DNA of 47,033 nucleotides, from NCBI RefSeq assembly GCF_900113135.1, contig NZ_FOOH01000032.1, positions 1-47,033 of the forward strand, written 5' to 3'. Shown here in pieces: positions 13,566 through 36,555 of this stretch; the first letter of the stretch is position 1, and each line of letters begins with the position of its first letter. Under the pieces are notes generated by a model. The model was not told the DNA's origin, searched no databases, and saw only the letters and a program-made list of their open reading frames with translations. The translations under genes were made by a program, and so were the position numbers. Origin of the DNA: Salegentibacter agarivorans. GTDB lineage: Bacteria; Bacteroidota; Bacteroidia; Flavobacteriales; Flavobacteriaceae.

Positions 13566-13589
13566 TGAGAATTAGGATTTAAAATATTT

Positions 13590-13625: not shown

Positions 13626-13677
13626 ATCCAATCGCTTCCTTACTTTTATGTTTCATATGCTACAATCCTGATAAAAA

Positions 13678-16530: not shown

Positions 16531-16537
16531 GACAAAC

Positions 16538-16574: not shown

Positions 16575-16613
16575 TTATTATGAAAAATAAAGCTCTTGAA
16601 AGAATTAAATAAT

Positions 16614-16693
16614 CGTCATCCTGAATTTATTTCAGGATCTAAGATCTTAATAATTATAAAAATGTTAGAAGCTGAAACAAGTTCAGCTTGACG
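16614..16693. repeat. CGTCA..TGACG paired-hairpin repeat
   Basis: The left hairpin ATCCTGAA/TTCAGGAT and the right hairpin AGCTGAA/TTCAGCT are flanked by CGTCA (16614-16618) and TGACG (16689-16693). The inner TCTAA/TTAGA is also complementary. Same design as 43353-43421 but with different stem bases. Confidence 0.75.
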
Positions 16694-16726
16694 AAACCAG
16701 TTCTTTTTACTCAACACAATAAACCA

Positions 16727-16760
16727 AAAACCTACAAGGTGTTTAAACTTTGTAGGTTTT
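16727..16760. terminator. Terminator-like palindrome AAAACCTACAAGGT..ACTTTGTAGGTTTT
   Basis: A 14-bp stem (16727-16740 with 16747-16760) contains one G-T pair. It lies 43 bases before the DUF423 gene and belongs to the same family as the palindrome at 20276. Confidence 0.65.
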
Positions 16761-16802
16761 CTAACTTAAATAAATAACCTCTCAGGATTATAATTATAAC
16801 TA

Positions 16803-17195
16803 ATGAAAGAAATTGTACTCATAATAGGTGGAATCTACGGCACACTTGCAGTAGTTTTTGGTGCTTTTGGAGCCCACGCTTTAAAAAAGCGTTTTTCTGA
16901 AGATCAGCTAAAAAGTTTTGAATCAGGAGTAAAATACCAAATGTACCACGCAATTATGCTTATAATTTCCGGAATAGTTTTTCCGTTTATTGGTATTTCT
17001 CAGCAGCTTATTGCCTGGTTTTTTATAATTGGAATATTTCTGTTCTCTTTTAGTATTTATGGTTTAACCCTAAGCGATTCCGTTGGAAAGAAAATAAAGA
17101 TTTTAGGACCAATAACTCCACTTGGCGGACTTCTGTTAATTCTGGGTTGGATCTTTTTCACTATAAGTATCGCTGATATTGCGCTTTACTTATAA
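16803..17195 (+). CDS. DUF423 family membrane protein
   Basis: The 130-residue protein has four hydrophobic segments and the family start GGIYGTLAVVFGAFGAHALKK, then KYQMYHAIMLI, typical of DUF423 (E. coli YgdD). The C-terminal GPITPLGGLLLILGW is also family-like. No biochemical role is established. It converges on the SBF-like transporter gene and overlaps it by six bases. Confidence 0.9.
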   Translation: MKEIVLIIGGIYGTLAVVFGAFGAHALKKRFSEDQLKSFESGVKYQMYHAIMLIISGIVFPFIGISQQLIAWFFIIGIFLFSFSIYGLTLSDSVGKKIKILGPITPLGGLLLILGWIFFTISIADIALYL

Positions 17196-18164
17196 AGTTT
17201 CTTCTAAAGTTTCAGCTTTTAAAACTCGCTTTCTATAGTTTTCAGCATAAAAAGCGATTAGTATTAATTGCAGAGAATGATAGATCATTATAGGTAGTAA
17301 TAATAGTCCGGTATTGGCTGAATTTCCAAAGATTACTTTTACCATTACAGAGCCGTGCACCAGGGATTTTTTAGTACCGCAAAATTGGGTGGTGATCCTG
17401 TCTTTTAAACTAAAACCTAAAATATTACAGATTAAACCAAGTCCAAAGTAAACTATAAAAAACAATAAAATAACTATCCCGGTAAGCTTAAGTAAATCAA
17501 TAGTTTCTACGCTGCTAAATATATTGGATGTGAACGAGTTACTAAAGCTTGAGTAAACAATTAGTATAATAGTAGTTTTATCTAGCAAGCCTAATTTTCT
17601 ACTGTGCTTTCTTGCAAAATTCCCAAGAAATTTTTGTAGAAATAATCCAAGAATTAGCGGTATAATAATCTGCCAGCATAATTTTATAAGTACATCCAGG
17701 AATTCAAAATCGGTACTTCCACTAAGAAAAAAACTTAGCCAAATGGGAGTTGCGAAGATGCCTATTAAACCCGAAAGGCTGGCGTTGAAAATGGCGGTAG
17801 GCAAATTTCCTTTAGCCAAAGAAACCATCACTATAGAAGAAGAGACTGTAGAAGGAAGTGTTCCCAGAAAAAATAAAGCAATCCAAAGATCTGAACCTGT
17901 TCCTGCTTCAAAAAGCGGTAAGCATAGCAGAGCTAAAAGTGGGAAGGCTACAAAGGTGGCTAACTGAATTGCGATGTGAACTTTATAATTCAGAAAACCC
18001 AATTTAAACTCTGCGGGAGATAATTTTAGTCCGTAGAAAAAGAAAATAAAACCTATCCCAATGTCGGTGATGGTTTTTAGCGGAAAAATCACAATTCCCT
18101 CAGGGAATAAATAGGCGATTATTATCGCCACAAAAATAGCTGCTATAAATCCATTAAATTTCAA
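17190..18164 (-). CDS. Bile acid:sodium symporter-like transporter (SBF-like, YfeH type)
   Basis: The 324-residue polytopic protein has about ten membrane segments. The characteristic stretch GIGFIFFFYGLKLSPAEFKLG lies near residue 35, FLGTLPSTVSSSIVMVSLAKGN near 105, and FCGTKKSLVHGSVM near 255. This matches the SBF-like (PF13593) branch related to E. coli YfeH rather than true bile acid carriers. The substrate is unknown. It is the last gene of a four-gene minus-strand operon with 3-5 base spacers. Confidence 0.88.
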   Translation of the reverse strand: MKFNGFIAAIFVAIIIAYLFPEGIVIFPLKTITDIGIGFIFFFYGLKLSPAEFKLGFLNYKVHIAIQLATFVAFPLLALLCLPLFEAGTGSDLWIALFFLGTLPSTVSSSIVMVSLAKGNLPTAIFNASLSGLIGIFATPIWLSFFLSGSTDFEFLDVLIKLCWQIIIPLILGLFLQKFLGNFARKHSRKLGLLDKTTIILIVYSSFSNSFTSNIFSSVETIDLLKLTGIVILLFFIVYFGLGLICNILGFSLKDRITTQFCGTKKSLVHGSVMVKVIFGNSANTGLLLLPIMIYHSLQLILIAFYAENYRKRVLKAETLEETL

Positions 18165-21795: not shown

Positions 21796-22788
21796 TTATT
21801 CCCGGTCCTCAAAATATTGGTAACCGTCTATAATATCCAGGTAAACCCCGTCAAAACCTGCAGCGATAATTTTAGAGAGATAAGCGTTTTCGCTGCCGTA
21901 GATTAAATCTTTCCAGTCCTCGTTCCAGTACTCTACTTTAAAATTCCCTTCCCATTCCGGGTTTTCTTCAAGGAGCCAGGTTGGGGATTTGGAACTCCAA
22001 TTTTCTTCCCAGTAAAAACGATAATCTTCGGCTTCGCCAATAGACATATAAGATATAACTAAACGCTCAGCACCATTTTTTTTCTTCTTTAATTTTTGAA
22101 TGTCTTCGGCAGTAAAAGCTTCGTTATGAAAGAAAAGATCCATAATAATAAGATCGTAATTAGTAAAAGCAAGTTCGGTGATAAGATCGTATTTCGAAGA
22201 ATATTCAGCGTAATTTAAAAGATACAGGAAGTTTTTAGCTTCAGAAAGATGGCTTATATTTTTATTATTTTCATTAAAAACAGGATAAGCTGGAATTCTA
22301 TCAAGTTCCCGCCGTGGCGCCGCGAAAGAAGTATAATTGTTTTCCTCATTAAGCCTGTAGGAATTTTTCATAAGCTTAAAACCCGAACAATAATCAGTTA
22401 CCAATACTTGCTTGCCCTCGTCTTTTGCCAAATCAAGGTACTTTCTTAAATATAAATTATCGGCTTTTGGGGTGATTTTGTTTAACTTTGGATAACCATA
22501 AAAAAGATCTTCCTGGGCTACCGCATCTATAGCATTTAAATAATCTAAAGCAGGAGTTTTCTTTAATTTAGCTTCTTTGGAAACCAACTGAACTCCATTC
22601 TGTGGGACAACTATAAAATTAGGATTTTCTTCTTTTGCGATTTCACTTATTTCAATAACAAACTCCCGCATTTCCTGGCGGTAGTCAATATTATTATTAT
22701 TATTATTATTCGATTCCTGAGCCACGTGTTCACCGCAGGAAAGGAATAAGTAGCAAAGCATATAAATGCTTATTCTAAAGAAGTTCAT
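21796..22788 (-). CDS. GH114/TM1410-family lipoprotein, putative glycoside hydrolase
   Basis: The 330-residue lipoprotein has lipobox LFLSC and an Asn7 linker. The (beta/alpha)-barrel core shows features of the MJ1477/TM1410 branch related to GH114 endo-alpha-1,4-polygalactosaminidases: YDLIIMDLFFHNEAFTAEDI, RLVISYMSIGEAEDYRFYW, and AAGFDGVYLDIIDGYQYF with the acidic residues expected in the active site. The substrate is likely an amino-sugar glucan. It is divergent from the Pel-like operon, sharing the 175-base gap 22789-22963 with it. It may trim or degrade that polymer, which is inference. It begins 21 bases before a TATCTTTG box (22816-22809, minus strand). Confidence 0.8.
   Translation of the reverse strand: MNFFRISIYMLCYLFLSCGEHVAQESNNNNNNNIDYRQEMREFVIEISEIAKEENPNFIVVPQNGVQLVSKEAKLKKTPALDYLNAIDAVAQEDLFYGYPKLNKITPKADNLYLRKYLDLAKDEGKQVLVTDYCSGFKLMKNSYRLNEENNYTSFAAPRRELDRIPAYPVFNENNKNISHLSEAKNFLYLLNYAEYSSKYDLITELAFTNYDLIIMDLFFHNEAFTAEDIQKLKKKKNGAERLVISYMSIGEAEDYRFYWEENWSSKSPTWLLEENPEWEGNFKVEYWNEDWKDLIYGSENAYLSKIIAAGFDGVYLDIIDGYQYFEDRE
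22689..22710. repeat. ATT trinucleotide tract encoding poly-Asn
   Basis: Seven consecutive TTA/ATT units on the plus strand give seven Asn codons just after the lipoprotein anchor of the GH114-like protein. Length changes would keep the frame. Confidence 0.85.
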
Positions 22789-22808
22789 AGATATGGAGCA
22801 ATTTTAAA

Positions 22809-22816
22809 CAAAGATA
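22809..22816 (-). promoter_or_regulatory. -7 box TATCTTTG of the GH114 lipoprotein gene
   Basis: Minus-strand TATCTTTG lies 21 bases upstream of the ATG. A T-rich -33 region (TTT at about 22837-22835) lies at the right distance but without the G. Confidence 0.45.
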
Positions 22817-22916
22817 AGTTAAATTACCATCCCTAAATTACGCTTTATAGTAGGATTGTTATTCTATTTAAACAAATTATAATTTAGGGTTTTCTTGTAA
22901 AATTTATATCGCCGGG

Positions 22917-22947
22917 TTTTTAAGTAACTGATTTTTAATATATTTTT
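22917..22947 (+). promoter_or_regulatory. Promoter of the Pel-like operon
   Basis: TATTTTTG (22940-22947) fits TAnnTTTG, and a TTTT (22917-22920) precedes it by exactly 19 bases. The first ATG follows 17 bases after the box. The divergent GH114 lipoprotein promoter lies about 100 bases away, so both directions may share regulators. Confidence 0.6.
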
Positions 22948-22963
22948 GGCGCAAAACTTTTAA

Positions 22964-24487
22964 ATGGCAAAACCATCTGTATTGCTTATAATGGAAGGCA
23001 CTTATCCTTTTAATGGTGGCGGTGTTTCTACCTGGGCGCATATTTTATGTAACAGGGTTAGCAATGTAGATTTTAAACTGTATTCTATAAATGCTTCTTT
23101 TGAGACAGAGTATAAGTATAAACTTAGCGATAATATAAACGAAGTAATACAGGTGCCTCTTTGGACACCAGATGAACCTTACGATTATATAAGTTACGGT
23201 GAGGAATATTATAAAACGGTAGCTAAAAAAGAGTGGACTAATGATGAAGTAGTTGCTCAAAAGTTTATTCCTATTTTTAAAAGCTTACTGGAGTTTATTT
23301 ATAGCGACGACCGTGATATAGAAGACCTGGATATAATTTTTCATCAGTTGTGGTTTTATTTTGAAGATTATGATTATAAAGAAACCATTAGAAATGAGCA
23401 GGTTTGGCTAACTTATAGAGATACTCTCGCTAAATTTATTATTGGTGAGCGTAACCCCGATGCATCTTTAATAGATATTACCATAGGCTTGCGCTGGATT
23501 TACAGGTTTTTAATACCACTTGCCATAGTGAACATTCCAAAAGTAGATGTTTCTCATTTAACGCTAAGTGGCTTCCCGGTAATTCCGGCACTTATTGCCA
23601 ATTACAAATACGGGACCCCAATAATCCTCACAGAACACGGAGTTTTTATTAGAGAAAGGTTATTGGCTATAAACAATTCAGAATATCCATATTTTTTAAA
23701 GAGTTTACTTATAAGGTTTTCAGAAGCTATTACCCGTTTGGTTTATCATAAGGCCGAAGTAATTATTTCTGTAAATAAATTCAATCAAAAATGGGAAAAA
23801 TGGTACGGGGCAGATCCGTCTAAATTCAGAATAATATACAATGGTATTGATCCCGAAGTTTTTAAACCCGGCCCTAAACCTCCACATTTAAAAGACATTC
23901 CTACCGTAGTTGCTTTGGCGAGAATTTTTGAATTAAAGGATATTCTTACCATGATTAGATCTTGTGCGGTAGTTAAAAGAAGTATTCCCGAGGTACAATA
24001 CCTGGTTTATGGAGATAATGATGCCGTACCTGATTATACCAAAGAATGCCTTGAACTTATAGCCGAATTAGGATTGCAAAACAATTTTAAATTAATGGGC
24101 CCAAGGAACAACCCACAGGAAGTTTTTTTAGAGGGAGATATTTCTATCCTGACGTCTATTTCTGAAGGATTTCCATATACCGTAATTGAATCTATGGGTT
24201 GTGGTATTCCCGTGGTTTCTACTGATGTGGGCGGAGTTAAAGAAGCACTTGATAATAGCTGTGGTTTTACCTGTAAACCAAAAGATGCCGAAGAAATTGG
24301 TGACAATGTTTTAAAATTGCTGTTAGATGATGATTTGCGAAAGAGTATGGGAAGAAATGCCAGGGAAAAAGTTTTGAATAATTTCACCTTATCCAAGTTT
24401 ATTGGCGAATATGAAGCTATTTATGATGATATTGTGAAAATACCCAGGGCCAAAAAAAAACTTACCAAGATTGAAGATTTTTCCTGA
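22964..24487 (+). CDS. PelF-like glycosyltransferase (GT4, DUF3492 N-terminus)
   Basis: The 507-residue cytosolic glycosyltransferase has the same length as P. aeruginosa PelF. The N-terminus MEGTYPFNGGGVSTW (residues 10-24) is the PelF/DUF3492 signature, and TEHGVFIRER (about 223) is the family's conserved THG segment. The C-terminal GT4 Rossmann domain has NGIDPEVF, an E-x7-E motif in EGFPYTVIE (Glu401 and Glu409) and STDVGGV. In Pel systems PelF polymerises the galactosamine-rich polymer from a UDP-sugar. The next gene (PelG-like) starts 2 bases after its stop. Assignment to PelF is strong; the sugar is inferred. Confidence 0.88.
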   Translation: MAKPSVLLIMEGTYPFNGGGVSTWAHILCNRVSNVDFKLYSINASFETEYKYKLSDNINEVIQVPLWTPDEPYDYISYGEEYYKTVAKKEWTNDEVVAQKFIPIFKSLLEFIYSDDRDIEDLDIIFHQLWFYFEDYDYKETIRNEQVWLTYRDTLAKFIIGERNPDASLIDITIGLRWIYRFLIPLAIVNIPKVDVSHLTLSGFPVIPALIANYKYGTPIILTEHGVFIRERLLAINNSEYPYFLKSLLIRFSEAITRLVYHKAEVIISVNKFNQKWEKWYGADPSKFRIIYNGIDPEVFKPGPKPPHLKDIPTVVALARIFELKDILTMIRSCAVVKRSIPEVQYLVYGDNDAVPDYTKECLELIAELGLQNNFKLMGPRNNPQEVFLEGDISILTSISEGFPYTVIESMGCGIPVVSTDVGGVKEALDNSCGFTCKPKDAEEIGDNVLKLLLDDDLRKSMGRNAREKVLNNFTLSKFIGEYEAIYDDIVKIPRAKKKLTKIEDFS

Positions 24488-24489
24488 AA

Positions 24490-26103
24490 ATGACTAAAGA
24501 TCAAATTAAAGCTATTGCAAAACTTGTTGTTGCGGTTAAAGAACGTAATGGTAAACCCGTGAATGTTTATGTGGTAGCCGCCACAATAGAATCTTTTGGA
24601 ATTAGGGAAGTAGATGCGAAAGAAGATTATGGCTTTGAAAGTATAATGCATCTTTCAAATTATATTTATAAAGCTTATGATGCCATTACCCTGGCAAACC
24701 TTAAAAATAATAATCAGCGTGTTGCTGAAGCCAAAACTTATAAAAGACTCGCTCTAACCGAGTATATTACGACAAAAAATACCAAGCGCTTTCTTGTAGA
24801 TTATACTTCAGGACTTTTACATTTATTTCCGGTTTTCTTGCAGGTGGTTGCCATAATTTTATTCGGATTTTCCCTTTGGACTTACTCTCATTTTAATAAC
24901 CTACAATCTACCGCAGTGGTACTGGGGGTAATTATTGGTTTTATTAGCAGTGCGGGTTTTGTGCAGGTTTTGGGAAAACAGGTTTCCTATTACTGGTATA
25001 ATAAAGATTACCATATGGCGAAACATTCTACCGTCCAAATTATAAAAAACGGGACTATTGCTATATTAGGCTTTTTTATATTCTCTTTACTTATCAATTT
25101 AGTAATCCCACTTTATAGTCTTCTTTTTGTAGTTATAACCTTTATTTACGCCTTGTTTATAGGTTTTCTTCTTTTGGTTTTAGCGCCTTTATATGCGTTA
25201 AAACAACGATGGATGCTTTCTTTTAGCGTCTTTGCAGGTACGGTGTTAGCGCTTTTACTTCATTTTTATACTGATATGCACCCTTATTATATTCATTGGA
25301 CAGGGATTCTGGTTGCTTCTTTAATTTCGGTTGGTTATATCTATTCCTTCTTTCATTTTAAGCTGAAAAATGAAACCGCGGTAAAAAAGAAGCCAAAGGT
25401 AATGCTCTCGTTATATCGTAATTTCAACTACTTTTTATACGGTACTTTTATTTTTCTTTTTGTTTTCCTGGACAGGATAGTGGCCTGGTCTTCTACCTTA
25501 AACAGGGATATTCCCTATATAATTTATTATGAAAAAGATTATGAGATTGGAATGGATCTCGCTATTCTCATTTTCTTCCTTCTTGGCGGAGTAATGGAAT
25601 ACGCTATTCACTCTTATATTAGGCATATGGATTTTCATCAACTTCAAACAAAATATTCAGATTTTCAGCGTTTTAACGATAAAATGAAAAAGATGTATTA
25701 TAAACATTTACGTTTATTTGCTATTAGTGCCGCGGGTATTGCCGTATTATTATATTTAATTGTTACGCAACCCTGGGGCTACTCCAGAGGTTTTGATGAA
25801 ATTCTGAGTCCGTTGAGTATAAAAGTTTGTATTCTTGGAAGTATAGGTTACTTATTTCTTAGCCTGGGAATGTTAAATGTACTCTATCTATATACGCTGG
25901 GAAGACATAGGAAACCACTGGTGGCCATTATAAGTGCTTTTCTGGTTAATTTTATAATTGGAGTCTTTTTAAGCAGATGGGTTTCTTACGAATATAGTGT
26001 TATGGGAATGTTAGTGGGGTCTCTGTTATTTGCAATACTTACAACACGGGAAACATATAGTTTCTTTAAAAATCTGGACTATTATTACTATGCATCTTAT
26101 TAA
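24490..26103 (+). CDS. PelG-like polysaccharide transporter with extra N-terminal domain
   Basis: The 537-residue polytopic protein has about twelve membrane helices from residue 105 on. FLFVFLDRIVAWSS, YYEKDYEIGMDLAIL and the late LGMLNVLYLYTLGRHRKPL match the PelG pattern (conserved DRI/VAWS and YExGxDLA). PelG is a Wzx-like inner membrane component that associates with PelF. Compared with PelG (about 456 residues) it carries a soluble, mostly helical N-terminal extension of about 75-100 residues (TKDQIKAIAKLVVAVKERNG...). Position directly after the PelF-like gene, as in pelFG, strongly supports the call. Confidence 0.82.
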   Translation: MTKDQIKAIAKLVVAVKERNGKPVNVYVVAATIESFGIREVDAKEDYGFESIMHLSNYIYKAYDAITLANLKNNNQRVAEAKTYKRLALTEYITTKNTKRFLVDYTSGLLHLFPVFLQVVAIILFGFSLWTYSHFNNLQSTAVVLGVIIGFISSAGFVQVLGKQVSYYWYNKDYHMAKHSTVQIIKNGTIAILGFFIFSLLINLVIPLYSLLFVVITFIYALFIGFLLLVLAPLYALKQRWMLSFSVFAGTVLALLLHFYTDMHPYYIHWTGILVASLISVGYIYSFFHFKLKNETAVKKKPKVMLSLYRNFNYFLYGTFIFLFVFLDRIVAWSSTLNRDIPYIIYYEKDYEIGMDLAILIFFLLGGVMEYAIHSYIRHMDFHQLQTKYSDFQRFNDKMKKMYYKHLRLFAISAAGIAVLLYLIVTQPWGYSRGFDEILSPLSIKVCILGSIGYLFLSLGMLNVLYLYTLGRHRKPLVAIISAFLVNFIIGVFLSRWVSYEYSVMGMLVGSLLFAILTTRETYSFFKNLDYYYYASY

Positions 26104-26902
26104 AATAATTATGGTTACAGCAGCAATCTGTTTAAATACCGCCCAGTCCGTCGCTCAAAAGGTTACCCAGGAAAAACAAATACTTTTTACCTATGGCGAT
26201 TTTTACCCAGCAGAAGTTTCAGGATACGAAATTGTAGTAATAGAAAGCGCTCATTTTGACAGTGAAGACATTGCAATGCTAAAGCAAAATAATACTACCA
26301 TTCTGGGTTATATTAGCCTGGGAGAAGTTAATGAGGCTGCTGCTCATTTTCCCGAAATTAAAGATTTCACTTTTGGAAAAAATAAAATATGGAATAGCCA
26401 TATTTTAGACATTGAAAATGAAGAAACCCGGGAAGCTCTAATGGCAATTTTTGATTACAATATGAAAAAAGGACTGGACGGGATGTTTTTAGACAATATA
26501 GATAACTATACCGGTTTTGGACCTACACCAGAAAAGAAAGAAGCTTTAATAGATTTTTTAAAGATTTTAAACTTGGTTTATCCCAATATTCATTTAATGC
26601 AAAATGCCGGTGTTTCTATACTAAAAGATACCCATCCATTTATAGATTCTGTAGCAAAAGAAAGTATTGCTTCAGATTATAATTTTCAGGAGAAAAAATA
26701 TCAATTAAGAGAGGAAGCTATTTTTCAGCAACTTTTAAACGAGCTAAAGCAGGTGTATGATGAATACGAAGTCCCAGTGGTTTTAATAGAATATGCCGAA
26801 ACCCGAAAGTTAAAAAAAGATATTAAACAAAGATTAGCACAAACCCCCTGGCCTTATTTTATTGGGAAAATAGATTTGCAGGAAATCCCCGAAAAAGGTT
26901 GA
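26090..26902 (+). CDS. Secreted GH114 endo-alpha-1,4-polygalactosaminidase-like protein (PelA hydrolase half)
   Basis: From the ATG at 26090, which overlaps the PelG-like gene by 14 bases, the product is 270 residues with a clear signal peptide (MHLIKIIMVTAAICLNTAQS). An in-frame ATG at 26030 would place 20 non-signal residues first and is less likely. The barrel shows YISLGEV (residues 74-80), GLDGMFLDNIDNYTGFG (Asp135/Asp138), and KESIASDYNF with Glu191 as the candidate acid/base, in the order known for GH114 and the PelA hydrolase domain. VVLIEYAETRKLKKDI and TPWPYFIGKIDL match the PelA-type C-terminal part. It should hydrolyse the galactosamine polymer periplasmically. Unlike P. aeruginosa PelA, no deacetylase domain follows. 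Confidence 0.8.
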   Translation: MHLIKIIMVTAAICLNTAQSVAQKVTQEKQILFTYGDFYPAEVSGYEIVVIESAHFDSEDIAMLKQNNTTILGYISLGEVNEAAAHFPEIKDFTFGKNKIWNSHILDIENEETREALMAIFDYNMKKGLDGMFLDNIDNYTGFGPTPEKKEALIDFLKILNLVYPNIHLMQNAGVSILKDTHPFIDSVAKESIASDYNFQEKKYQLREEAIFQQLLNELKQVYDEYEVPVVLIEYAETRKLKKDIKQRLAQTPWPYFIGKIDLQEIPEKG

Positions 26903-26912
26903 ATTAATTTAT

Positions 26913-28904
26913 ATGTTTTTAGAACCCTACCTATTAACCGGTCCGTTAAGAATCATCCTGTTATTTGTATTAATTTTATTAATACATAGAATTGTTTCTA
27001 CACGAATTTCTGCACAATCTGCTTTAAATTTTCTGGTTCCTACTATTGCGCTTGTAATGGCAGCGGTATTACTAGGTGGTTTTATTTTAATACTAACCGG
27101 GATATTTGACATCTTTGTTATTATAAGCATTATAATTGGCCTGGCTGTTTTAGCCTTTATGAATCTTAATTTTAAGCAACCCTTAAAAGCTCAGTTACGT
27201 AAAATTTATACGCGTTCCCTTTTATATATTACTATTAAAATGGAAAAGGGACAGCGATTTCTGGATAGAGATAATATAATTAAACCAAAGCGTAAACATT
27301 CTGAACATGGCCTTTCTCAATATCATAGAAACTGGCAATTAGCCATAGGGCTTTTATTACCTGTGCTTACTTATATCTCGAGAAGTTCACTTTTTCAGGA
27401 AGATGTTTACACACTTTCCTCGAGTTGGTTTAGTAAGCTTAATTTTATAAATGGGATTTCTGCTAATACCTGGTTCTTTCAAACCGGGGAAATGATGGGA
27501 GATTATTTACTTATTAATTTATATGCAAAATTAACGCATATAACTAACGCCCAGGCTTTGCAATCTTTTGGATTATTAGAATCTGCATTGCTTTCTTTAA
27601 TAATATACTGGCTAGTTTTTAAAATTTCACGAAAGCAAGCTCCGGGCATATTCGCGGGCTTAAGTTTTGCCCTTTTTTACGGATTCCTCCCCATTAATAT
27701 TGATTTAATTGCTGAACATAAATCGGTTTTTACCGCTTTGATTATTGCTTTACCTACAATGTATTTTTGTATTTATCCGCAAAGTTTTAGTTACAGTAAA
27801 AAGGCGAAATTTTATTGGTTAATTACCTTGTTTAGCGCTATTCTTTTATTAGATCTTTTTGTGGGTGTATTACTTCTTCTTCCTTATTTGCTAGTACTTT
27901 TTATATTTAAACTTAAAGATAATTTAAAGCAAATCACTCAGGTTTTGCTGGCCTATTTCTTTTCGTTAGCCTTTATTGGAACAATATACGGCATCGCGGC
28001 TTTGCTTATAAAAGAAGATTTTGGCGCCTTTATTTTGTCTAACTTTTATTCTTTTGATACTTATACCTACAATCCTCATTTGGTTGCACCATTTAGAGAC
28101 CTGATGGATTATTACCAAATAGCCGCTGTAGTTTTTCTGCTTATTGCTATTTATAATTATTTTAAAAAATCGCATAAATGGTTGGCCAGTCTGGTATTCC
28201 TCAGTTTTATCAATTTAATGTTCGGGATTTACCAATTAGATACTGGTCTTGTAGACCTGGATATTTTAAGTCAGGTGCTTTGCATATTTCTCCCCATATT
28301 TTTTGGGATAATTCTAAATGTAATGGTTAACCTCTTTTCTATTTTTAATTTTTCTCCTAAAGTTGGCATACGTCTGGAAGTAATAATAGGTAGCATAGTA
28401 ATTACCGTGCTTACCATATTCACATTCCCTGGTGTAGCCACATTAAATTTTAAAGAAAATAAGACAGAAAATGTTGTTTTTAAAGCCTATTCAAAAATTC
28501 AATCTCAAAATTTACCATATTCCTATGCGGTTGTAAATGCTTTGCCATATTTCAGTTTTAGCAGAAACAGCCATTATTACTATAACTACGATTATTTTAA
28601 TAATACCTATATAGAGCTGGACAGGAGATTCAACAGATATAAAAATAATTTCGAATACCTACAAAATAACCCAGATATTATTTTACCCGAAACGATGTAT
28701 GTTTTTGTGTATAAAGACATACAGGAGGCTAACCAGGCTAAAAAAGCTATAGTAGAAAAGCAACGTAATTTAACCCTGGAAAGGCTGGAATTACTAAAAA
28801 TGAAAGGGAGAAATGTGGATGTATATTATGAGGATAAAAATTTAGAGGTTTACCAAATAGAAAACAGGGAACGGGCCAGTAATATTAATGAACTATTATT
28901 TTGA
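26913..28904 (+). CDS. Unrecognised large polytopic membrane protein of the Pel-like operon
   Basis: The 663-residue protein has three N-terminal helices (about residues 8-85) and a basic cytoplasmic linker (about 90-135). A second block of about ten helices (140-500) follows, then a soluble C-terminal domain (510-663) rich in Tyr and Asn. After the first helix of the second block there is an acidic extracytoplasmic loop RSSLFQEDVYTLSSSW, an arrangement seen in GT-C-type transferases. That is a weak analogy. No PelD, PelE, GAF or GGDEF feature is visible. Its TGATG stop/start overlap with the next gene and the operon position argue for a polymer-synthesis or modification role. I do not recognise the family. 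Confidence 0.7.
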   Translation: MFLEPYLLTGPLRIILLFVLILLIHRIVSTRISAQSALNFLVPTIALVMAAVLLGGFILILTGIFDIFVIISIIIGLAVLAFMNLNFKQPLKAQLRKIYTRSLLYITIKMEKGQRFLDRDNIIKPKRKHSEHGLSQYHRNWQLAIGLLLPVLTYISRSSLFQEDVYTLSSSWFSKLNFINGISANTWFFQTGEMMGDYLLINLYAKLTHITNAQALQSFGLLESALLSLIIYWLVFKISRKQAPGIFAGLSFALFYGFLPINIDLIAEHKSVFTALIIALPTMYFCIYPQSFSYSKKAKFYWLITLFSAILLLDLFVGVLLLLPYLLVLFIFKLKDNLKQITQVLLAYFFSLAFIGTIYGIAALLIKEDFGAFILSNFYSFDTYTYNPHLVAPFRDLMDYYQIAAVVFLLIAIYNYFKKSHKWLASLVFLSFINLMFGIYQLDTGLVDLDILSQVLCIFLPIFFGIILNVMVNLFSIFNFSPKVGIRLEVIIGSIVITVLTIFTFPGVATLNFKENKTENVVFKAYSKIQSQNLPYSYAVVNALPYFSFSRNSHYYYNYDYFNNTYIELDRRFNRYKNNFEYLQNNPDIILPETMYVFVYKDIQEANQAKKAIVEKQRNLTLERLELLKMKGRNVDVYYEDKNLEVYQIENRERASNINELLF

Positions 28905-31900
28905 TGGAAAAATTTTTACCAACTAAAATATTTAAGGCTGTTTTTTTAGTGTTTTCTATTATTTTAATAGGATGCGAAAAAGATATTAAGAAGGAGGAGG
29001 TTAAGGAAGCCAGTCCCAAGGTGCAGTATGATAATTTTAGTGAGAACCCGTGGATAACTTACCTGGTAGAGCCGGGAAATGATTTAAGTTTTAGAAACAG
29101 CAATCATATTAGAAAAGCTCTTAATTATGCAAAAATCCCTTATAATGAAATTAATAGGTTTGATTTTAATGAAAAGCCAGAAGTAGGCAATGCAGTTAAA
29201 GTAATTGTGGTCTATGATCTGGAACCACTAAATCAAGATGCAATGAATTTTTTAATTGAATTTGTTGCTAAAGGAGGTCATATTTTTATTCCCTCGGTCG
29301 CTACCAATAAAAATTTTGGTTTTTTAGCAGGCGTAAGGGGAGATGCAGACTTTGAAATAGATACCATAGCCCAGGGTTTTAAATTTCAGTCCAGTTTTCT
29401 ACCGGCTCTAAAAGGGAAAGTTTATAAAAACGAGAATAAACATTTTGGCCTGCAAACAGATAACTTTAAGGAAGATATAGAGATTCTGGCAACTTCAATT
29501 TCTGAAGAAGATTATCCTCTTATTATAAAAAATAAAATAGGGAATGGTTCGGTAATCACTTTTAATACCGATCAATATTCTCAGAAACAGGAGCGCGGAC
29601 TTTTCTTTGCAGCAATTTTGCAGGGTTTAGAAGGGGTTCCTTATCCTGTGGCTAATGCTTCAAGCATAATGTTAGACGATTTTCCTGCGCCGCTTTATAA
29701 CGTAAAGATGGAGCCGGTTACTTCAGAAATGGATATTAGTCAGGCGCGTTTTTATACTGAAGTTTGGTGGAAAGATATGCTTAAACTGGCCAGGGAAGAA
29801 GGTTTGGAATATTCTGCCTACGTATGTTTTGATTATTCTAATCGTACCTCGCCGCCATTTAATTTTCCCGAGTGGGAACAATCTGTATTAACAGGTTCTA
29901 ATGGAGCGAATGCTGCCGACAGACTTATGGTTGATTTCAAAGATTCTAAACATGAGGTAGCTTTACATGGTTATAATCACGCTTCACTTACCGATGAAGT
30001 TTGGCCTAATCAAAATTATATGGGTTTAAGCCTTAAGGCGGTTAAAAAACGCTGGGCAGCGCGTAATTACGGTGAATTACCGGTTTCATATGTTCCACCT
30101 TCAAATATTATAGACAGCACCGGTTTTCTTGCTTTAGAAGAAAACATCCCCGAAATTATTTATAATGCCAGTATTTACCTGGGAAATTTTGAAGAAGGTG
30201 GCGATAGAGAATTTGACAGGGAGCCTTATAACGATCATTTTTTCAATTTTCCACGAATTACCAGCGGGTTTGCTTTAACCTCTACCAGGCAATTCAATCA
30301 GCAATCTTTATATTTATATACAGGCGTTTGGACGCATTTTATTCACCCCGATGATATTTACCAAATTCCCGGAGAAGAACCTCGGGAAAGTGCCGGTGAT
30401 TATACTTTACGGAATATAAATTCTTATGGCTGGAGAGTTTCAGAAGATGGCTCACCGGGTTTGTTTCCACGATTTCGAAATTATATTAAAGATGTAAAGA
30501 ATACTTTTCCTTTAATTCGATTTTTAAAAGTTTCTGAAGCAGCTAAGATTACTCAAAACTGGAGAGAAATTCCTTATAATTTTACTGAAAATGAGAGTGA
30601 AGTTGAAGTTACTGCCAGCATTCAAAATAGTGAGAACCAAAATTTCTGGTTTGCATATGTTTCAGAAAAAAATACTGCTGAAGCTGAAAATTTTATAAAA
30701 AATAAACAACTAAAATTTACAAAAACACCATTCTTAGACGGCTATCTTTTTAATATTCAAACACAGGACAAAAAAATAATTTTTCCAAAATTTAAAAATA
30801 ATTTTTCTGAGGATTTTAGCAAAATCACTCAAAACTATGAATCTTACCTTTTAATAAAACCTTCAGAAGATTTAGGAGATATCCACAAAGAGATTAATGA
30901 ATTAAAATCTAAAATTGCGAAGAACAATCATTATGAACGCGAAGATTGGTTAAAATTATTTCAATATTTAGGCTGGGAAAATCGCCAAATGGAGATTTGG
31001 CCGTTGCTGGAAAGAAAATACAGTGAAAATAAATCATCTGCTTACATAAACCTTTCTTCAGAATTTACCACTCAGAGTGATTATCCTGATTTGGAAACCA
31101 GGAAACGCTGGATGTTGAGACAAATAGAATTAAATCCAGAAAGCCTAAAGCTTAGAAGAGATTTTATAGGTTACTTTGGAAGCAATACAGAGGTACAATT
31201 AACAAAAGAAGAATTATTGAACCTAATAGAGAATACTGAAGTAGATGAGGAGCGCTCCAGCTATTTTTCACTGTTAAATGAGAAACATCCCGAAGCTGCA
31301 TTTAATTTAGTGAAAAACATAGAGCACTGCCGTAAAGATTTTCGCTTTGCCGCTTCTACTATTTCCTGGATTTTCGCCGATGCTAAAAAATACAATGAGG
31401 CCATTAAATGGTCTAAGTGTAGTGACGATATAGCGGAAAGCGCAATAGATAACTGGCGGGTACAAACCGGGGAATATGAGTTTTTAAAAGAAAAGAACTT
31501 TCCGCTTTTTATAGAATATCTTATTGCCGATAATGATAAAAAAGCGGCGCAAAAACTTTTGGAGATAGAAGCTTGCCGGGAAGATTTAAAGCATTTGGCT
31601 ACGACTATTGCCTATACTTATAGCGACCAGGGAAGTTATAGAAAAGCGCTGGAATGGTCTTCTTGCGTGCCAAATTTCCCTGTAGTAGAAAGGATGCAAT
31701 GGTTTTATTCGTTGGAAAATTTCAGTGAAGTAGAGCGTTTGTATGCTAATTATACTAAAAAAGATAATCCAAAGGAAAAAGAAGCTATTCAGGTTTTTAT
31801 GACCGAATATTATTTGGGTCGTAGCGAAATGCTGAAAGCCTGGAACCTTGCCTCTCAACTGCCAGAATCAAGTAATAAAGAGCGTTTACGAAGGCAATTG

Positions 31901-32893
31901 AATAATACCGTGGTTTACCTTAATCCTGAAGAAAAAAGACAGCTTTTAAAAGAATATCCTTCACTTTTTTATCCTGAAGTAGCTTCTAAAATAGAGCAGA
32001 ATCTTAGAATAACACAGGGCGATTTTGTACAAATAGGGAGTAATATTATTAGCGATAGGTTAGATCCAACTTCTGTAGGTTTAGAAGCGGTTTATGGCAC
32101 TCGAGATAAGAAGTTCAATGAGCATCAATTTGGGTTAAGCCGCTATAATGCATATGCAATTCCATTTCAGGGTGAATTTGAAAATAATGGAGATATGGAG
32201 CTATACGGACTGGTTTACAGGTTTAAAACCAGGGAAAGAATAGAAAAATTTAATTTTGGATTTGGAAGTCGTCTTGAGTTTAACGAAGCAGGAAAAGCTT
32301 ATCTTCATTTGGAAGCTTCGGCGTCAATTGCAAAAGATAGTTTATATAGTTCTTTTCAGTTTTTTAGAAAACCCGCTATCACCGGCCCCGCGTATATCCT
32401 GGACATTTATCAAACGCAATTAAATGTTTATGAAGAACTTCAGTTTAAAGAGAAATTCCAGGCGGTTTTTTATATAGAAGGAAACCATTATGACGACGAA
32501 GATGTGATGGATGTACAGGCGCTTACCAGTTTATCTATGAATCTTAGACTGAATAAAATGGCGAAATTTAGACCTTATACCGAATTATCTGGAATGCTGG
32601 GTAATTCAAACAGGTCTAATGGCTTTCCATACTGGACTTTAGATGAACGTTTTTATGGTGGTTTAGGGTTGGCTTACGAATATGTAAATGAAAATAACTT
32701 CTGGAAAATTAATCTAGATGCCGGATATTTTCTGGATACGTTTTCAGATGAATTTCAGCGGTATCGTGGGATTGTGGTATGGCCAGTCACGAAGTATCTT
32801 CATCTTAATACCCAGGCCGAATTCTATACGCTTAAAAACTTTTATTCCAACAACTTTACCTTCGGTCTAAAATATTTTCTAAAAGATAATTAA
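28904..32893 (+). CDS. Fusion lipoprotein: polysaccharide deacetylase, TPR-like helices and beta-barrel (PelA-deacetylase/PelB-like)
   Basis: From the ATG at 28904 (TGATG overlap with the previous stop; a TTG at 28901 is unlikely), this gives 1329 residues. Lipobox LIGC anchors Cys24. Residues about 45-245 look like the Rossmann-like domain that precedes DUF2194/PelA deacetylases. Residues about 250-550 form a CE4-like deacetylase with IMLDDFPAPLY (Asp258, Asp259), EVALHGYNHASL (His355, His359) and WTHFIHPDDIYQ (His478, His481). Residues about 660-1020 are helical, TPR-like. The last 300 or so residues alternate polar/hydrophobic strands with aromatic girdles, ending FTFGLKYFLKDN, a beta-barrel signature as in the PelB C-terminus. 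It probably de-N-acetylates and exports the polymer through the outer membrane. Confidence 0.8.
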   Translation: MEKFLPTKIFKAVFLVFSIILIGCEKDIKKEEVKEASPKVQYDNFSENPWITYLVEPGNDLSFRNSNHIRKALNYAKIPYNEINRFDFNEKPEVGNAVKVIVVYDLEPLNQDAMNFLIEFVAKGGHIFIPSVATNKNFGFLAGVRGDADFEIDTIAQGFKFQSSFLPALKGKVYKNENKHFGLQTDNFKEDIEILATSISEEDYPLIIKNKIGNGSVITFNTDQYSQKQERGLFFAAILQGLEGVPYPVANASSIMLDDFPAPLYNVKMEPVTSEMDISQARFYTEVWWKDMLKLAREEGLEYSAYVCFDYSNRTSPPFNFPEWEQSVLTGSNGANAADRLMVDFKDSKHEVALHGYNHASLTDEVWPNQNYMGLSLKAVKKRWAARNYGELPVSYVPPSNIIDSTGFLALEENIPEIIYNASIYLGNFEEGGDREFDREPYNDHFFNFPRITSGFALTSTRQFNQQSLYLYTGVWTHFIHPDDIYQIPGEEPRESAGDYTLRNINSYGWRVSEDGSPGLFPRFRNYIKDVKNTFPLIRFLKVSEAAKITQNWREIPYNFTENESEVEVTASIQNSENQNFWFAYVSEKNTAEAENFIKNKQLKFTKTPFLDGYLFNIQTQDKKIIFPKFKNNFSEDFSKITQNYESYLLIKPSEDLGDIHKEINELKSKIAKNNHYEREDWLKLFQYLGWENRQMEIWPLLERKYSENKSSAYINLSSEFTTQSDYPDLETRKRWMLRQIELNPESLKLRRDFIGYFGSNTEVQLTKEELLNLIENTEVDEERSSYFSLLNEKHPEAAFNLVKNIEHCRKDFRFAASTISWIFADAKKYNEAIKWSKCSDDIAESAIDNWRVQTGEYEFLKEKNFPLFIEYLIADNDKKAAQKLLEIEACREDLKHLATTIAYTYSDQGSYRKALEWSSCVPNFPVVERMQWFYSLENFSEVERLYANYTKKDNPKEKEAIQVFMTEYYLGRSEMLKAWNLASQLPESSNKERLRRQLNNTVVYLNPEEKRQLLKEYPSLFYPEVASKIEQNLRITQGDFVQIGSNIISDRLDPTSVGLEAVYGTRDKKFNEHQFGLSRYNAYAIPFQGEFENNGDMELYGLVYRFKTRERIEKFNFGFGSRLEFNEAGKAYLHLEASASIAKDSLYSSFQFFRKPAITGPAYILDIYQTQLNVYEELQFKEKFQAVFYIEGNHYDDEDVMDVQALTSLSMNLRLNKMAKFRPYTELSGMLGNSNRSNGFPYWTLDERFYGGLGLAYEYVNENNFWKINLDAGYFLDTFSDEFQRYRGIVVWPVTKYLHLNTQAEFYTLKNFYSNNFTFGLKYFLKDN

Positions 32894-33684
32894 GGATTAA
32901 TTTTAAATGAGGCTGAAGCTTTATCAAAAACGATCAAGCCTTCTGGAAAAACAGTAGCAAATGCTCCAGATTCCAATAATTCTTTAGGGGAACCGGTGGT
33001 CACGCTATTATTTTGCATGAGAATAATTTTATCGCAAAGCTGGATGGCCAAATTGATTTCGTGGGAAGCAAAAACTATAGCTTTATTGGTTTTTCGGGTG
33101 AGTTTTTTGAGCAGTTTTAGTACATATGCTTTATGGTAAAGATCTAAATGGGTGGTAGGTTCATCCAGGATAACCAGAGGCGTATTTTGTGCAATGGCGC
33201 GTGCAATTAAAACTTTTTGTAGCTGGCCGTCACTCAATTCGTAGCACTTTTTGTTTTGTAAATCTTCGATTCCTACATTTTGCAAAGATTTCTTGATTTG
33301 CCGTAAATCGGTTTTGCTTAACCTGCCAATCCAATTGGTATAGGGTTGTCGGCCAAGTGCCACGAGCTCGAAAACACTTAAGTTTTTAGAAATAGGTTGT
33401 TCGGTGAGTACGAGACTCACTAAAGATGCCAGCTCCAAAGAACCTATCTGCTGAATTTGTTCATTTTTAACCAGAACTTTTCCCTCTAGCGCATCCTGAA
33501 CACCACTTAGGGTTCGTAAAAATGTAGATTTTCCGACTCCATTAACACCAATAACAGCAACCAGTTCTCCTTCGTGAACTTCAATATTAATAGCTTCAGT
33601 AATAATCGTTTTCTCGGTTTTATTACTGTACCCGATATCAAGACCAATGGTTTTAAGAATGCTATGTTTTTTAGGTTGGTTCAA
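32890..33684 (-). CDS. btuD: ABC transporter ATPase, BtuD/FecE type
   Basis: The 264-residue ATPase has Walker A GVNGVGKST, the signature SDGQLQKVLIARA (SDGQ in place of SGGQ), Walker B LVILDEPTTHLD and a switch His in ASHEINLAI. It matches cobalamin/siderophore importer ATPases. It follows the FecCD-type permease by 2 bases and overlaps the convergent Pel-like fusion gene by four bases. Assignment to B12 rather than iron comes from the adjacent cobalamin riboswitch and BtuB/BtuG genes; it is not visible in this gene alone. Confidence 0.85.
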   Translation of the reverse strand: MNQPKKHSILKTIGLDIGYSNKTEKTIITEAINIEVHEGELVAVIGVNGVGKSTFLRTLSGVQDALEGKVLVKNEQIQQIGSLELASLVSLVLTEQPISKNLSVFELVALGRQPYTNWIGRLSKTDLRQIKKSLQNVGIEDLQNKKCYELSDGQLQKVLIARAIAQNTPLVILDEPTTHLDLYHKAYVLKLLKKLTRKTNKAIVFASHEINLAIQLCDKIILMQNNSVTTGSPKELLESGAFATVFPEGLIVFDKASASFKINP

Positions 33685-33686
33685 CT

Positions 33687-34718
33687 TCAGAATAAAAATT
33701 TACGTTTACGCACCAAGAGCCAGATTACCACCGGCGCGCCAATTAACGAAGTTATGGCATTTATAGGTAAAGTGTATTCCTGTCCCGGCATTTGTGCCGC
33801 AATATCGCAAATAAGCATGAGCGCCGCACCACCTAAAATAACTGCTGGCACTAAAATGCTATGATTATTTACAGGAATTATTTGCCTAATTAAATGCGGA
33901 ACTGCTAAACCTACAAATGCAATTGGCCCTGCAAAAGCAGTAATGCTTCCGGCAAGTAAACTGGTGGCTATAATGATGATTAAACGGTTTTTTTGAATAC
34001 TTACCCCAAGGCTTTTAGCATATTGTTCGCCAAGCAACAAAGTGTTGAGGTTTTTAATACAGGAAATGGCTAAAATTATTCCCACAAACCAAAACATGGC
34101 GAGAATTCCCACCTCGTTCCAGGAAAGATCACCCAAACTTCCAAAAGACCAAAATACATATTGCTGAAGCTGTGCCGCGGGACTAAAATAGGAAAGAACG
34201 CTAACCACTGCCGCGGTTAAACTGGCAAACATTAAACCTATAATAAGAATTGCCATAGTATCTCGAAGCCGGAGGGAAGCCAGCATAACAGCAATTAATA
34301 CTAATAAACTTCCCAGGCTGGAAGCAATTACCAAGCTCCATTTGGAAAGTAAAATTCCAGCAAAAGCACCTCCAAAAACTGAAGCACCCATAATAACGAT
34401 TGCCACACCCAAACTGGCACCGCTACTTAAGCCTAAAACATACGGTCCAGCTAAGGGGTTACGAAATAAAGTCTGCATTAACAGTCCGCTAATGGCGAGT
34501 CCAGAGCCGGTTATTATTGCTGTAATAGCTTTAGGTAAGCGGTATTCCACTACAATATATCGCCAGGTTTCTTTTGAAACTTCTAAATTAAAGATTGAAG
34601 CAAAAACATCTTTAAAAGGAATATTGACTGAGCCCAAACTAATATTTAAAAAAACCAGGATAATTACTCCTATAAAAAGGAGTAGAAGTGGAAGTACATA
34701 TTTTTGGGACTGCAACAA
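33687..34718 (-). CDS. btuC: ABC importer permease, BtuC/FecCD family
   Basis: The 343-residue permease has about ten membrane helices. The family's VEYRLPKAITAIITGSGLAISGLLMQTLFRNPLAGPYVLG lies near residues 60-95, followed by FAGPIAFVGLAVPHLIR near 265. Those blocks identify FecCD/BtuC permeases of periplasmic-binding-protein-dependent importers. It is co-transcribed with the ATPase (2-base gap). The 177-base gap to the binding protein contains no supported gene. Confidence 0.88.
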   Translation of the reverse strand: MLQSQKYVLPLLLLFIGVIILVFLNISLGSVNIPFKDVFASIFNLEVSKETWRYIVVEYRLPKAITAIITGSGLAISGLLMQTLFRNPLAGPYVLGLSSGASLGVAIVIMGASVFGGAFAGILLSKWSLVIASSLGSLLVLIAVMLASLRLRDTMAILIIGLMFASLTAAVVSVLSYFSPAAQLQQYVFWSFGSLGDLSWNEVGILAMFWFVGIILAISCIKNLNTLLLGEQYAKSLGVSIQKNRLIIIIATSLLAGSITAFAGPIAFVGLAVPHLIRQIIPVNNHSILVPAVILGGAALMLICDIAAQMPGQEYTLPINAITSLIGAPVVIWLLVRKRKFLF

Positions 34719-34895
34719 GGCTGGTGATTTATTTCGGTGTAAATATCTGAAATAAATTGAGTAGATAAAATTAATGAAGAACGATAATGGGATTTTACTC
34801 GATAATCTAGATTTAATTGATCCGGAATTTGTTTCGAAATCAAGCTATATTTAGAAGGATAGTCCACTAAGTTTTTTAGAACCAAATCTCCATAA

Positions 34896-36050
34896 TTATT
34901 CTTCCAAAGCCTTAAAAAACCTGTTTTCATAATCTCCCAATAGCTCTGGATGAAAAATGGATACCAGATCTTTTAATACCAAATCTGGACGTTGCGGGCC
35001 TAATTCAAAATAAAGTACACCCCCTGTTTCTCCTTTGGTTAGGCTTACGCTGTAGACATTTTTATTCTGTACTGCTTCAAACTGTTCATAATGTTGCGAT
35101 TCTTTTAAAAGTTGGGTATAAGAAGTGTATTGTCCTGCACTAATCCAATAATCGGCATCCTGGGCTTTGTCTAACACATTTTCAAAAGATAAAGCCATAC
35201 TTCCATTCCCTTGAGTATCGGCATAGACATAATTTGCATTGGCATCTTTAATAAATTGGGCTTGCCACGAATTTCCGTGGGGTAAATACCACTGGTCTTT
35301 ATACATAGCGCCGCTTAATACTTTAGGCGTTTCTGCTGCCGACTTTGCTAATTCTTTGGCTTCAGTATAATCGGTTTCTATTTTATTAAAAATCTTTTCA
35401 GCTTCATCTAATTTATTATAAAAAACGCCAAAGAATTTAATCCATTCCGCCTTTCCCAGCGGAGTTTTTTCGGTCCAGTCGCCATTGTACATCACCGGAA
35501 TTCCGGTTTTTTGAATGGTTTCAAATGTTTTATTGTTTCCGTCAATTGCAAAACCAATCACCACTTCTGGATCCAGATCAATAAGAACCTCGGTATTTAT
35601 ATTTTTATTTTTCCCCAGCTCTTTAATTTTTCCTGAATTAATCAATTTCCTGGTTTTTTCTGAAGAAATATAATCGAGACCTGGAAATCCTTTTAAGCTG
35701 TTTTCTTCATTTAAAGCTTCCAAAGCCGGAATATGCGTGGTAGAAGTCACCACCATTTTTTCTATCGGAATTTGCACTTTTTGGTCATAATCTAAACCGG
35801 AAGGAATTTCAGTATTTTCTTTAGTTAATAAATAGGTAAAAGCTTTATCGACATCGGGCCAGGCGGTTTCTATTTTTAAAATATAATAATCTCCAAAATC
35901 ATTGATGCTGAAATTAGTAGCGTGTTTTAAATCAACTGAATCTTGAGGTGTTTCTGAAGCAATATTTTTATCTTTTTGCTCGTTTTTACAGGCGGAAAAT
36001 ACTAGAAAAAGGAGTAGAAGATTAAGTGCTTTTACAGTCTTTATTTTCAT
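34896..36050 (-). CDS. btuF: Periplasmic binding lipoprotein, BtuF/FepB type
   Basis: The 384-residue lipoprotein has lipobox VFSAC. Two lobes of the helical-backbone periplasmic-binding fold (PF01497) are visible: EKMVVTSTTHIPALEALN near residue 105, DLDPEVVIGFAIDGNN near 165, and SFENVLDKAQDADYWI near 285. It would deliver cobalamin, or a related corrinoid or siderophore, to the BtuC permease. It is divergent from the cobalamin riboswitch/btuB unit, supporting B12. No riboswitch is seen in its own leader. Confidence 0.85.
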   Translation of the reverse strand: MKIKTVKALNLLLLFLVFSACKNEQKDKNIASETPQDSVDLKHATNFSINDFGDYYILKIETAWPDVDKAFTYLLTKENTEIPSGLDYDQKVQIPIEKMVVTSTTHIPALEALNEENSLKGFPGLDYISSEKTRKLINSGKIKELGKNKNINTEVLIDLDPEVVIGFAIDGNNKTFETIQKTGIPVMYNGDWTEKTPLGKAEWIKFFGVFYNKLDEAEKIFNKIETDYTEAKELAKSAAETPKVLSGAMYKDQWYLPHGNSWQAQFIKDANANYVYADTQGNGSMALSFENVLDKAQDADYWISAGQYTSYTQLLKESQHYEQFEAVQNKNVYSVSLTKGETGGVLYFELGPQRPDLVLKDLVSIFHPELLGDYENRFFKALEE

Positions 36051-36116
36051 TTTATGGTAGTTTAAAGGAATTGAATTTATATAATGCTATCTTCTTTTAG
36101 CCCCCTAAATAAATTA

Positions 36117-36149
36117 CGGGGCAAGCTCTGAAACAAGTTAAGGATGACG
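36117..36149. repeat. Solo half of the CGTCA-type repeat
   Basis: Its reverse complement (CGTCATCCTTAACTTG...GAGCTTGCCCCG) matches the left arm of the 6486 element at 29 of 33 positions. It sits in the btuF/btuB intergenic region. Confidence 0.6.
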
Positions 36150-36255
36150 AAAACTTTTATATAGAATATTTATAATTAGGAATTTTCAAAAGTAAGATTA
36201 TTTAGAATTTAATGGTCGCAACTAAAATAAATGTTTAATTTCGCATTGAAATTTT

Positions 36256-36506
36256 TGGTTCGGATGTGTTTTTCACGCCGATTAAAAGGGAATCAGGAAA
36301 AGTATGATTTTGGAAGTACAAAATATGAAGCACGAAGTTTTCTTCGTATTTCAAACTTCTACCATTTAACTTTATTAAGCCTGAGCTGTTCCCGCAACTG
36401 TAAGCTAAGTCCCGAAAGGGATGCTTGTTGTTATCACTTCAAAAACCACTGTTCTTATTTGGAATGGGAAGGTAAACAACAAGACGCGAGCCAGGAGACC
36501 TGCCAA
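36256..36506 (+). ncRNA. Cobalamin riboswitch upstream of btuB
   Basis: The conserved elements are in order: GGTTCGGATGTG at about 36258, AAAAGGGAATCAGG, then GCCTGAGCTGTTCCCGCAAC with TGTAAGC near 36380, AAGTCCCGAAAGGGATGC, CCACTG, GGGAAGG, AAACAACAAGACGCGAGCC and the B12-box partner AGGAGACCTGCC at 36493-36504. The layout is that of the AdoCbl-type (RF00174) riboswitch. It ends about 50 bases before the btuB ATG, so it probably controls translation or termination of the btuB-btuG transcript in response to B12. Short plus-strand frames over it are spurious. Confidence 0.93.
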
Positions 36507-36555
36507 AATATAACCAATAAATTCTTAGACTTTCGGGATAAAAGTCAGAGTGCAG

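Follow-up and report, generated by a model that had tools for sequence, protein, structure and literature searches.

The question raised by this locus of Salegentibacter agarivorans is whether it encodes a Pel-type exopolysaccharide system and, if so, whether its unusual gene set is peculiar to one genome. The window analysed is the whole 47,033-nucleotide stretch of contig NZ_FOOH01000032.1, and the genes concerned lie at positions 21796–32893. A first-pass annotation of the sequence had described them as a tight operon with a divergent GH114-like lipoprotein gene. All six open reading frames (ORFs) were found at the positions which it gave, with two start codons corrected. Five of them form an operon on the plus strand in the order pelF, pelG, GH114 hydrolase, M663 (a membrane protein) and fused lipoprotein, with adjoining genes overlapping or at most 10 bases apart. 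The features, with lengths in amino acids (aa), are as follows.

21796–22788, minus strand: divergent lipoprotein, a GH114/TM1410 (GH191-like) hydrolase with its barrel halves apparently swapped
22964–24487, plus strand: pelF, a GT4 polymerase and predicted poly-N-acetylgalactosamine (poly-GalNAc) synthase of 507 aa, assigned by NF038011, DUF3492 and a tree
24490–26103, plus strand: pelG, a divergent exporter of the inner membrane that is extended at its N-terminus by about 80–100 aa, assigned by PF16933
26090–26902, plus strand: stand-alone secreted GH114 hydrolase of 270 aa, whose nearest solved relative is the PelA hydrolase domain
26913–28904, plus strand: M663, a 663-aa protein with 13 transmembrane helices and a predicted GT-C fold, obligate partner, with Asp164 in the first long loop
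28904–32893, plus strand: predicted lipoprotein combining a DUF2194 (PelADA-type) deacetylase, a TPR solenoid and a 16-strand barrel
29054–30679, plus strand: its DUF2194 deacetylase domain, with D259, D260, H356, H360, R452, H482 and D485 invariant
30881–32017, plus strand: its TPR solenoid (predicted local distance difference test score, pLDDT, 91.2 in the model)
32024–32890, plus strand: its 16-strand outer-membrane barrel, with PgaA, BcsC and PelB as top folds

It is considered probable, at roughly three chances in four, that this operon encodes a Pel-type synthase-dependent exopolysaccharide system with M663 as an obligate partner. The evidence for this consists of protein families, gene order, co-occurrence, conserved active-site residues and predicted folds. 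The models for PelF, PelG, GH114 and DUF2194 were all matched, PelG weakly, which upheld the assignment as a Pel-type locus. PelF scored 175.9 bits against NF038011 (cut-off 100) and 185.2 bits against DUF3492, and NCBI's own model (NF038011) is already enough to name the pelF gene. PelG scored 31.9 bits against PF16933 (cut-off 29) over residues 108–534, and both proteins thus passed the profile searches which had been proposed as a check. On the same models proteobacterial proteins score far higher (688 and 777.5 for two PelF, 459 for PelG), so the Bacteroidota PelF and PelG are regarded as distant members of their families; the Cetobacterium PelF scores 349.5 on NF038011. A tree of 34 proteins placed the 22 Bacteroidota PelF in one group (support 99/98). 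It was built from 17 of the 70 Flavobacteriaceae-type sequences (window included), five from other families, five second GT4 proteins and seven proteins of other phyla, the last from seven of the eight fetched loci, with Cereibacter (L146) left out as its pelF was not separated in the ORF calls; Thermus and Deinococcus form long branches in it. The PelF alignment comprises 77 rows, two of them fusobacterial. It was also observed that Bacteroidota PelG are lengthened at the N-terminus by a conserved stretch of some 80–100 residues (24490–24800 in the window). Among the loci compared, significant matches to a profile of this stretch were limited to Bacteroidota, with nothing significant in the loci of other phyla (best E 0.11, Thermus).

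The stand-alone hydrolase scored 66.7 bits against the GH114 family and matched the PelA structures 9cgy and 5tcb with E values of 1.5e-16 and 3.2e-16. Its Asp155 and Glu211 (290-aa numbering), read from the PelA alignment as the catalytic pair, are present in all 78 aligned rows (the window, 72 others and five from other families). The most likely start is ATG 26090 rather than TTG 26030, because several relatives of 270 aa begin at the matching position, and it gives a 14-nt overlap with pelG, which is the median overlap in 69 relatives. The DUF2194 domain scored 237.9 bits and matched Bacillus cereus PelADA (9zau) with an E value of 1.5e-62, and by this sequence match it belongs to the PelADA family. 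The seven active-site residues listed above are invariant in an alignment of 75 rows, made up of the window and 74 loci; the other six of the 80 (L104 among them) were left out because their sequences were split or too short. The suggestion that PelA is split was therefore correct, as hydrolase and deacetylase lie on separate genes here. The ATG of the fused gene at 28904 has one base in common with the M663 stop codon TGA (28902–28904).

The view of the locus as a rearrangement in a single genome did not hold, since the same arrangement proved to be the rule in a wide group of Bacteroidota. Named genomes were scanned with the DUF2194 alignment, and of the 120 relatives obtained the best 80 were read. 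In 69 of these 80 loci the five genes directly follow one another on the same strand in the order pelF-pelG-GH114-M663-DUF2194, so this order is not a chance arrangement. In the remaining 11 a contig end falls within the operon. The named loci are often close kin, and the counts are not independent events. The neighbourhood survey recovered the same operon in many genera, namely Salegentibacter, Gillisia, Christiangramia, Mesonia, Leeuwenhoekiella, Flavobacterium, Maribacter, Aquimarina, Cellulophaga, Wenyingzhuangia and Roseivirga, among others, several of the carriers being binned contigs with doubtful names. The nearest named locus among the best 80 is that of S. salinarum, with 92% over the deacetylase domain. 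A recent one-off import was rejected, the gene order being common to many genera. Whole or partial operons of the flavobacterial type were also seen on contigs titled Bifidobacterium breve (L094), Limnohabitans (L136) and Sphingobacterium thalpophilum (L106), all metagenome-assembled genomes; the first two titles probably denote misnamed or mixed bins.

In an even draw of 296 genomes from the phylum Bacteroidota the same 23 genomes were picked out by DUF3492, by DUF2194 at E<1e-50 and by the M663 profile, for which up to four first-look candidates were scored in each genome. Scoring of all M663 candidates in 21 genomes around G011 returned the same two carriers as before. Short, weak DUF2194 matches occurred in 14 further genomes, with G196 at 30.8 bits barely above the cut-off of 30.4. 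Within the genus group of the window M663 was found in nine of 15 genomes, its own included. It should also be noted that one locus of this group (L043, genome G304, 10317–17922) is broken, as three transposase genes interrupt it: a DDE_Tnp_1 in the hydrolase gene, one of the Mutator family in pelG and one of IS1595 type in pelF.

M663 had been set down as unrecognised, which is right insofar as no Pfam or NCBIfam model matched it at E≤1; its predicted fold had been overlooked. Thirteen membrane helices were counted by hydropathy. None of 17 family members matched Pfam, the sequences of solved structures and the plasmid collection gave no match, and no match was obtained between the M663 profile and those of PelA, PelB, PelD, PelE, PelG and fusobacterial PelG. 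The predicted model matched GT-C folds at ranks 1–12 of one fold list and rows 1–47 of another, as judged by titles and with residues 1–131 barely covered, and M663 is thus predicted to have a GT-C glycosyltransferase fold. Asp164 is found in all 76 Flavobacteriaceae-type copies, and may correspond to the acidic residue with a role in the first long periplasmic loop of GT-C enzymes. D448, D450 and D570 are conserved in nearly all copies (alignment of 81 rows: the window, 75 others and five from other families), so another catalytic site is possible. All 20 loci of other families (L147–L166), which include the five first read (L053–L057), have two extra PelF-domain matches beside the main one, against none in the three Flavobacteriaceae genomes of the 296-genome draw; in the five read fully the second PelF-like gene encodes a GT4-like protein of 389–401 aa. 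HD, GAF, SpoIIE or two-component genes adjoin the pel core in L053 and L055.

M663 may act in sugar transfer, with a polyprenyl-phosphate donor, or it may serve as a scaffold. That it is a non-catalytic GT-C-fold scaffold in the role of PelD/PelE, holding PelF and PelG together, is a tentative possibility. Such subunits exist, for example PIG-U of the GPI transamidase, and GPI transamidase chains U occupy rows 38, 45 and 46 of the M663 fold list. M663 is also present in 23 of 23 genomes with a PelF domain, though 20 of these lack the loop Asp, and PelD was found in none of the 17 carrier genomes searched. The retention of Asp164 throughout one group nevertheless suggests selection for chemistry there, and with D448, D450 and D570 conserved the protein may have a different catalytic site. 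It is rather unlikely that the machinery is derived from Pel and the polymer is something other than plain Pel, with the Flavobacteriaceae GT-C protein adding a branch sugar or transferring the chain to a lipid or protein anchor, and a second GT4 making a hetero-backbone in the other families. The predicted fold, the split in loop Asp (76/76 against 0/20) and the extra PelF-domain matches would agree with this, whereas both hydrolases and the deacetylase belong to families that act on Pel and have kept their active-site residues, and no polyprenyl-phosphate glycosyltransferase was seen in the operon, the genome not having been searched for one. A more specific proposal, in which the GT-C enzyme works periplasmically on the exported chain (by branching, or by lipid or protein anchoring), one lipoprotein both deacetylates and exports, and Flavobacteriaceae do without c-di-GMP, is considered unlikely.

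Degradation rather than synthesis of a galactosamine polymer is very improbable. Two GH114-type hydrolases together with a deacetylase could suggest it, as could ZGAL_1272, a GH114 gene of the flavobacterium Zobellia galactanivorans which is reported to respond to agar and is not known to take part in agar breakdown (PMC5613140); it might itself belong to such a pel locus. In contrast, the barrel is by its predicted fold of the export type. PelF and PelG come first in the operon in 69/69 complete loci, and the degradation reading was rejected for that reason.

The fusion of the deacetylase to an exporter was confirmed, and its description as PelB-like holds by fold and fails by sequence. In the predicted model the TPR-plus-16-strand-barrel architecture of PelB is recovered, with the best fold matches to the barrel being PgaA, BcsC and PelB. 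The PelB barrel model PF24604 gave no match in the fused protein (E≤1), in the genome of the window or in any control genome; it matches a proteobacterial PelB with 123.2 bits. In an uncultured Aquimarina (L104), which was counted among the 69 ordered loci, the fused gene is broken up into two reading frames of 813 and 452 aa; in Aquimarina agarilytica (L101) the protein has 1337 aa.

The components reported as not visible were not seen here either, within the scope covered. PelD (PF16963) was found in none of the 17 carrier genomes, and two of two Pel plasmid control records gave a match. No PelC-like gene and no PelE were seen in the operon; neither was searched for genome-wide. A proteobacterial PelC stays below the cut-off of every Pfam model, and for PelE there is no family model. 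GGDEF (PF00990), the diguanylate cyclase domain, whose absence the first-pass annotation had overlooked, occurred in none of the 12 Flavobacteriaceae carriers tested and in eight of 14 control genomes. A c-di-GMP switch of the Pseudomonas aeruginosa kind therefore appears unlikely in these Flavobacteriaceae, as neither PelD nor GGDEF was found there.

Several results weigh against the reading of a Pel-type system with this partner and control. PelG is, by sequence, the weakest link of family identity: eight of 20 members match PF16933 at E≤0.01 and 12 miss, with no other family matching any of the 20, and hhalign against three proteobacterial PelG was not significant (E 0.51). A profile comparison of the DUF2194 domain with proteobacterial PelA by hhalign likewise gave nothing significant, so the kinship of the deacetylase is drawn from 9zau. 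No sequence link from the TPR-barrel to PelB was found by hhalign, and the barrel is matched equally well by PgaA, BcsC and PelB. Prediction of the lipid anchor is motif-based, with Cys25 in 74 of 75 rows and in 13 of the 20 other-family copies. The M663 model is of moderate quality (pLDDT 71.5), and the loop Asp is lost in 20/20 copies from other families. As for control, none of the 14 standard control genomes gave a PelD match, GGDEF is present in two of five other-family carriers and absent in three, and one of the 12 GGDEF-free carriers is G304 with its broken operon.

Polymer identity, protein locations and the division of labour are inferred. In the proposed Pel-type system PelF would work in the cytosol and polymerise what is most likely GalNAc. 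The chain would be moved across the inner membrane by the divergent PelG, with M663 as an obligate inner-membrane partner. The periplasmic chain would then be threaded along the TPR solenoid of the lipid-anchored fused polypeptide, partly deacetylated by that same polypeptide and released through its own 16-strand barrel. The stand-alone GH114 hydrolase would trim or clear chain in the periplasm; in loci that have it, the lipoprotein hydrolase may be a second trimming or release enzyme. Control in the Flavobacteriaceae carriers would be independent of c-di-GMP.

Compared with pelABCDEFG of P. aeruginosa, both systems have PelF, PelG, a GH114-type hydrolase, a deacetylase and a TPR with 16-strand barrel. 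Here, however, hydrolase and deacetylase are on separate genes with the deacetylase fused to the exporter, PelD was not found, PelC and PelE were not seen in the operon, and a predicted GT-C-fold protein and the N-terminal addition on PelG are extra. With the Gram-positive pelDEADAFG and separate pelAH of B. cereus the locus shares a DUF2194/PelADA-type deacetylase and a stand-alone hydrolase; there the locus includes PelD and PelE, and PelADA is a protein of its own (a 593-residue chain in 9zau), whereas here the TPR-barrel is fused to the deacetylase and PelD was not found (PMC7112168, PMC13254593). The split PelA is thus a theme already known from Gram-positives, and what is new is the deacetylase-exporter fusion, the obligate partner of predicted GT-C fold and the lack of c-di-GMP input predicted for Flavobacteriaceae. 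The PgaA and BcsC exporters share the TPR and 16-strand barrel by predicted fold. Their partner genes differ from those of this operon, and we know of no PgaA or BcsC exporter with a fused deacetylase. Fusobacterial pel loci (Cetobacterium somerae plasmid, Fusobacterium vincentii) share PelF, DUF2194 and a hydrolase with the same swapped order; they differ in a long PelG (703 and 772 aa), a barrel-less DUF2194 protein of 612–621 aa, no M663 match and, in Cetobacterium, a GAF-domain protein.

The locus is apparently an undescribed conserved Bacteroidota variant of Pel, as had been proposed. The literature searches, which covered the longer result lists in part, returned no description of a Bacteroidota pel operon or of this arrangement. 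The word stem 'Bacteroid' does not occur in the main text of the pel surveys PMC7112194 and PMC7112168, nor in that of PMC12141448, PMC12022489, PMC9894940 and PMC13254593. Full-length PelA is reported in 16 phyla (PMC12022489), PelC–PelG are named in a matrix/signalling annotation table of a paper including a Bacteroidota strain, the strain carrying them not being specified (PMC8305213), and pelF, pelG and a DUF2194 gene of F. nucleatum appear in an expression table (PMC9848294). The described Pel systems, as far as these sources go, are those of Proteobacteria and Gram-positives, the best studied of which use c-di-GMP through PelD. If the reading is true, a conserved Bacteroidota form lacking PelD, among Flavobacteriaceae in which no diguanylate cyclase domain was found, would indicate that the polymer machine can run on other control. 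P. aeruginosa PelA is reported to bind the TPRs of PelB (PMC12141448, PMC12022489), and a single-chain deacetylase-exporter would make this hand-over, inferred so far from two proteins, testable in one polypeptide. The obligate partner of predicted GT-C fold would be a component unmentioned in the parts of the Pel literature examined.

The divergent lipoprotein had been described as GH114-like, which was supported by a score of 60.0 bits (180.7 against TIGR01370, slightly below the cut-off of 181.25); an apparent circular permutation had been overlooked. Its sequence matches TM_1410 with the Asp/Glu pair aligned, as in GH191/TM1410, and differs from that family in the swapped order of the barrel halves; the word stem 'permut' does not occur in the GH191 paper (PMC12054363). 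Residues 239–327 match TM_1410 chain 55–139 (i-Evalue 3.8e-23), and residues 38–97 match chain 151–203 weakly (i-Evalue 0.038). As these two pieces come in reversed order and depart from the linear barrel, the protein looks circularly permuted. Alignments with proteins of Cetobacterium and Fusobacterium cover its full length, and these proteins match the ordinary GH114 profile as two swapped pieces. Their matches to profiles containing them, as with fusobacterial PelF, arise by construction, and independent matches were obtained separately. The swap was located at 21796–22788 in the window, 6678–7577 in L059 and 15898–16857 in L060; since it is common to Bacteroidota and Fusobacteriota, it probably goes back a long way. 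The residues aligned with the catalytic pair, Glu93 and Asp318, are present in 31/31 rows (the window, 28 others and two fusobacterial). Of the 69 ordered loci, 26 have a second GH114-like lipoprotein upstream and two have it downstream, while 41 have none in the locus.

Promoter and terminator scans showed no excess over shuffled sequence. The 2-kb bins of the operon have a GC content of 0.329–0.348, at the low end of the window range of 0.329–0.409, which is little informative on import. At 32890 the end of the operon abuts a minus-strand ABC transporter gene. The region 32890–38397 next to the operon encodes an ABC ATPase, a FecCD permease, a periplasmic binding protein and a TonB-dependent receptor, an uptake set of iron or cobalamin type.

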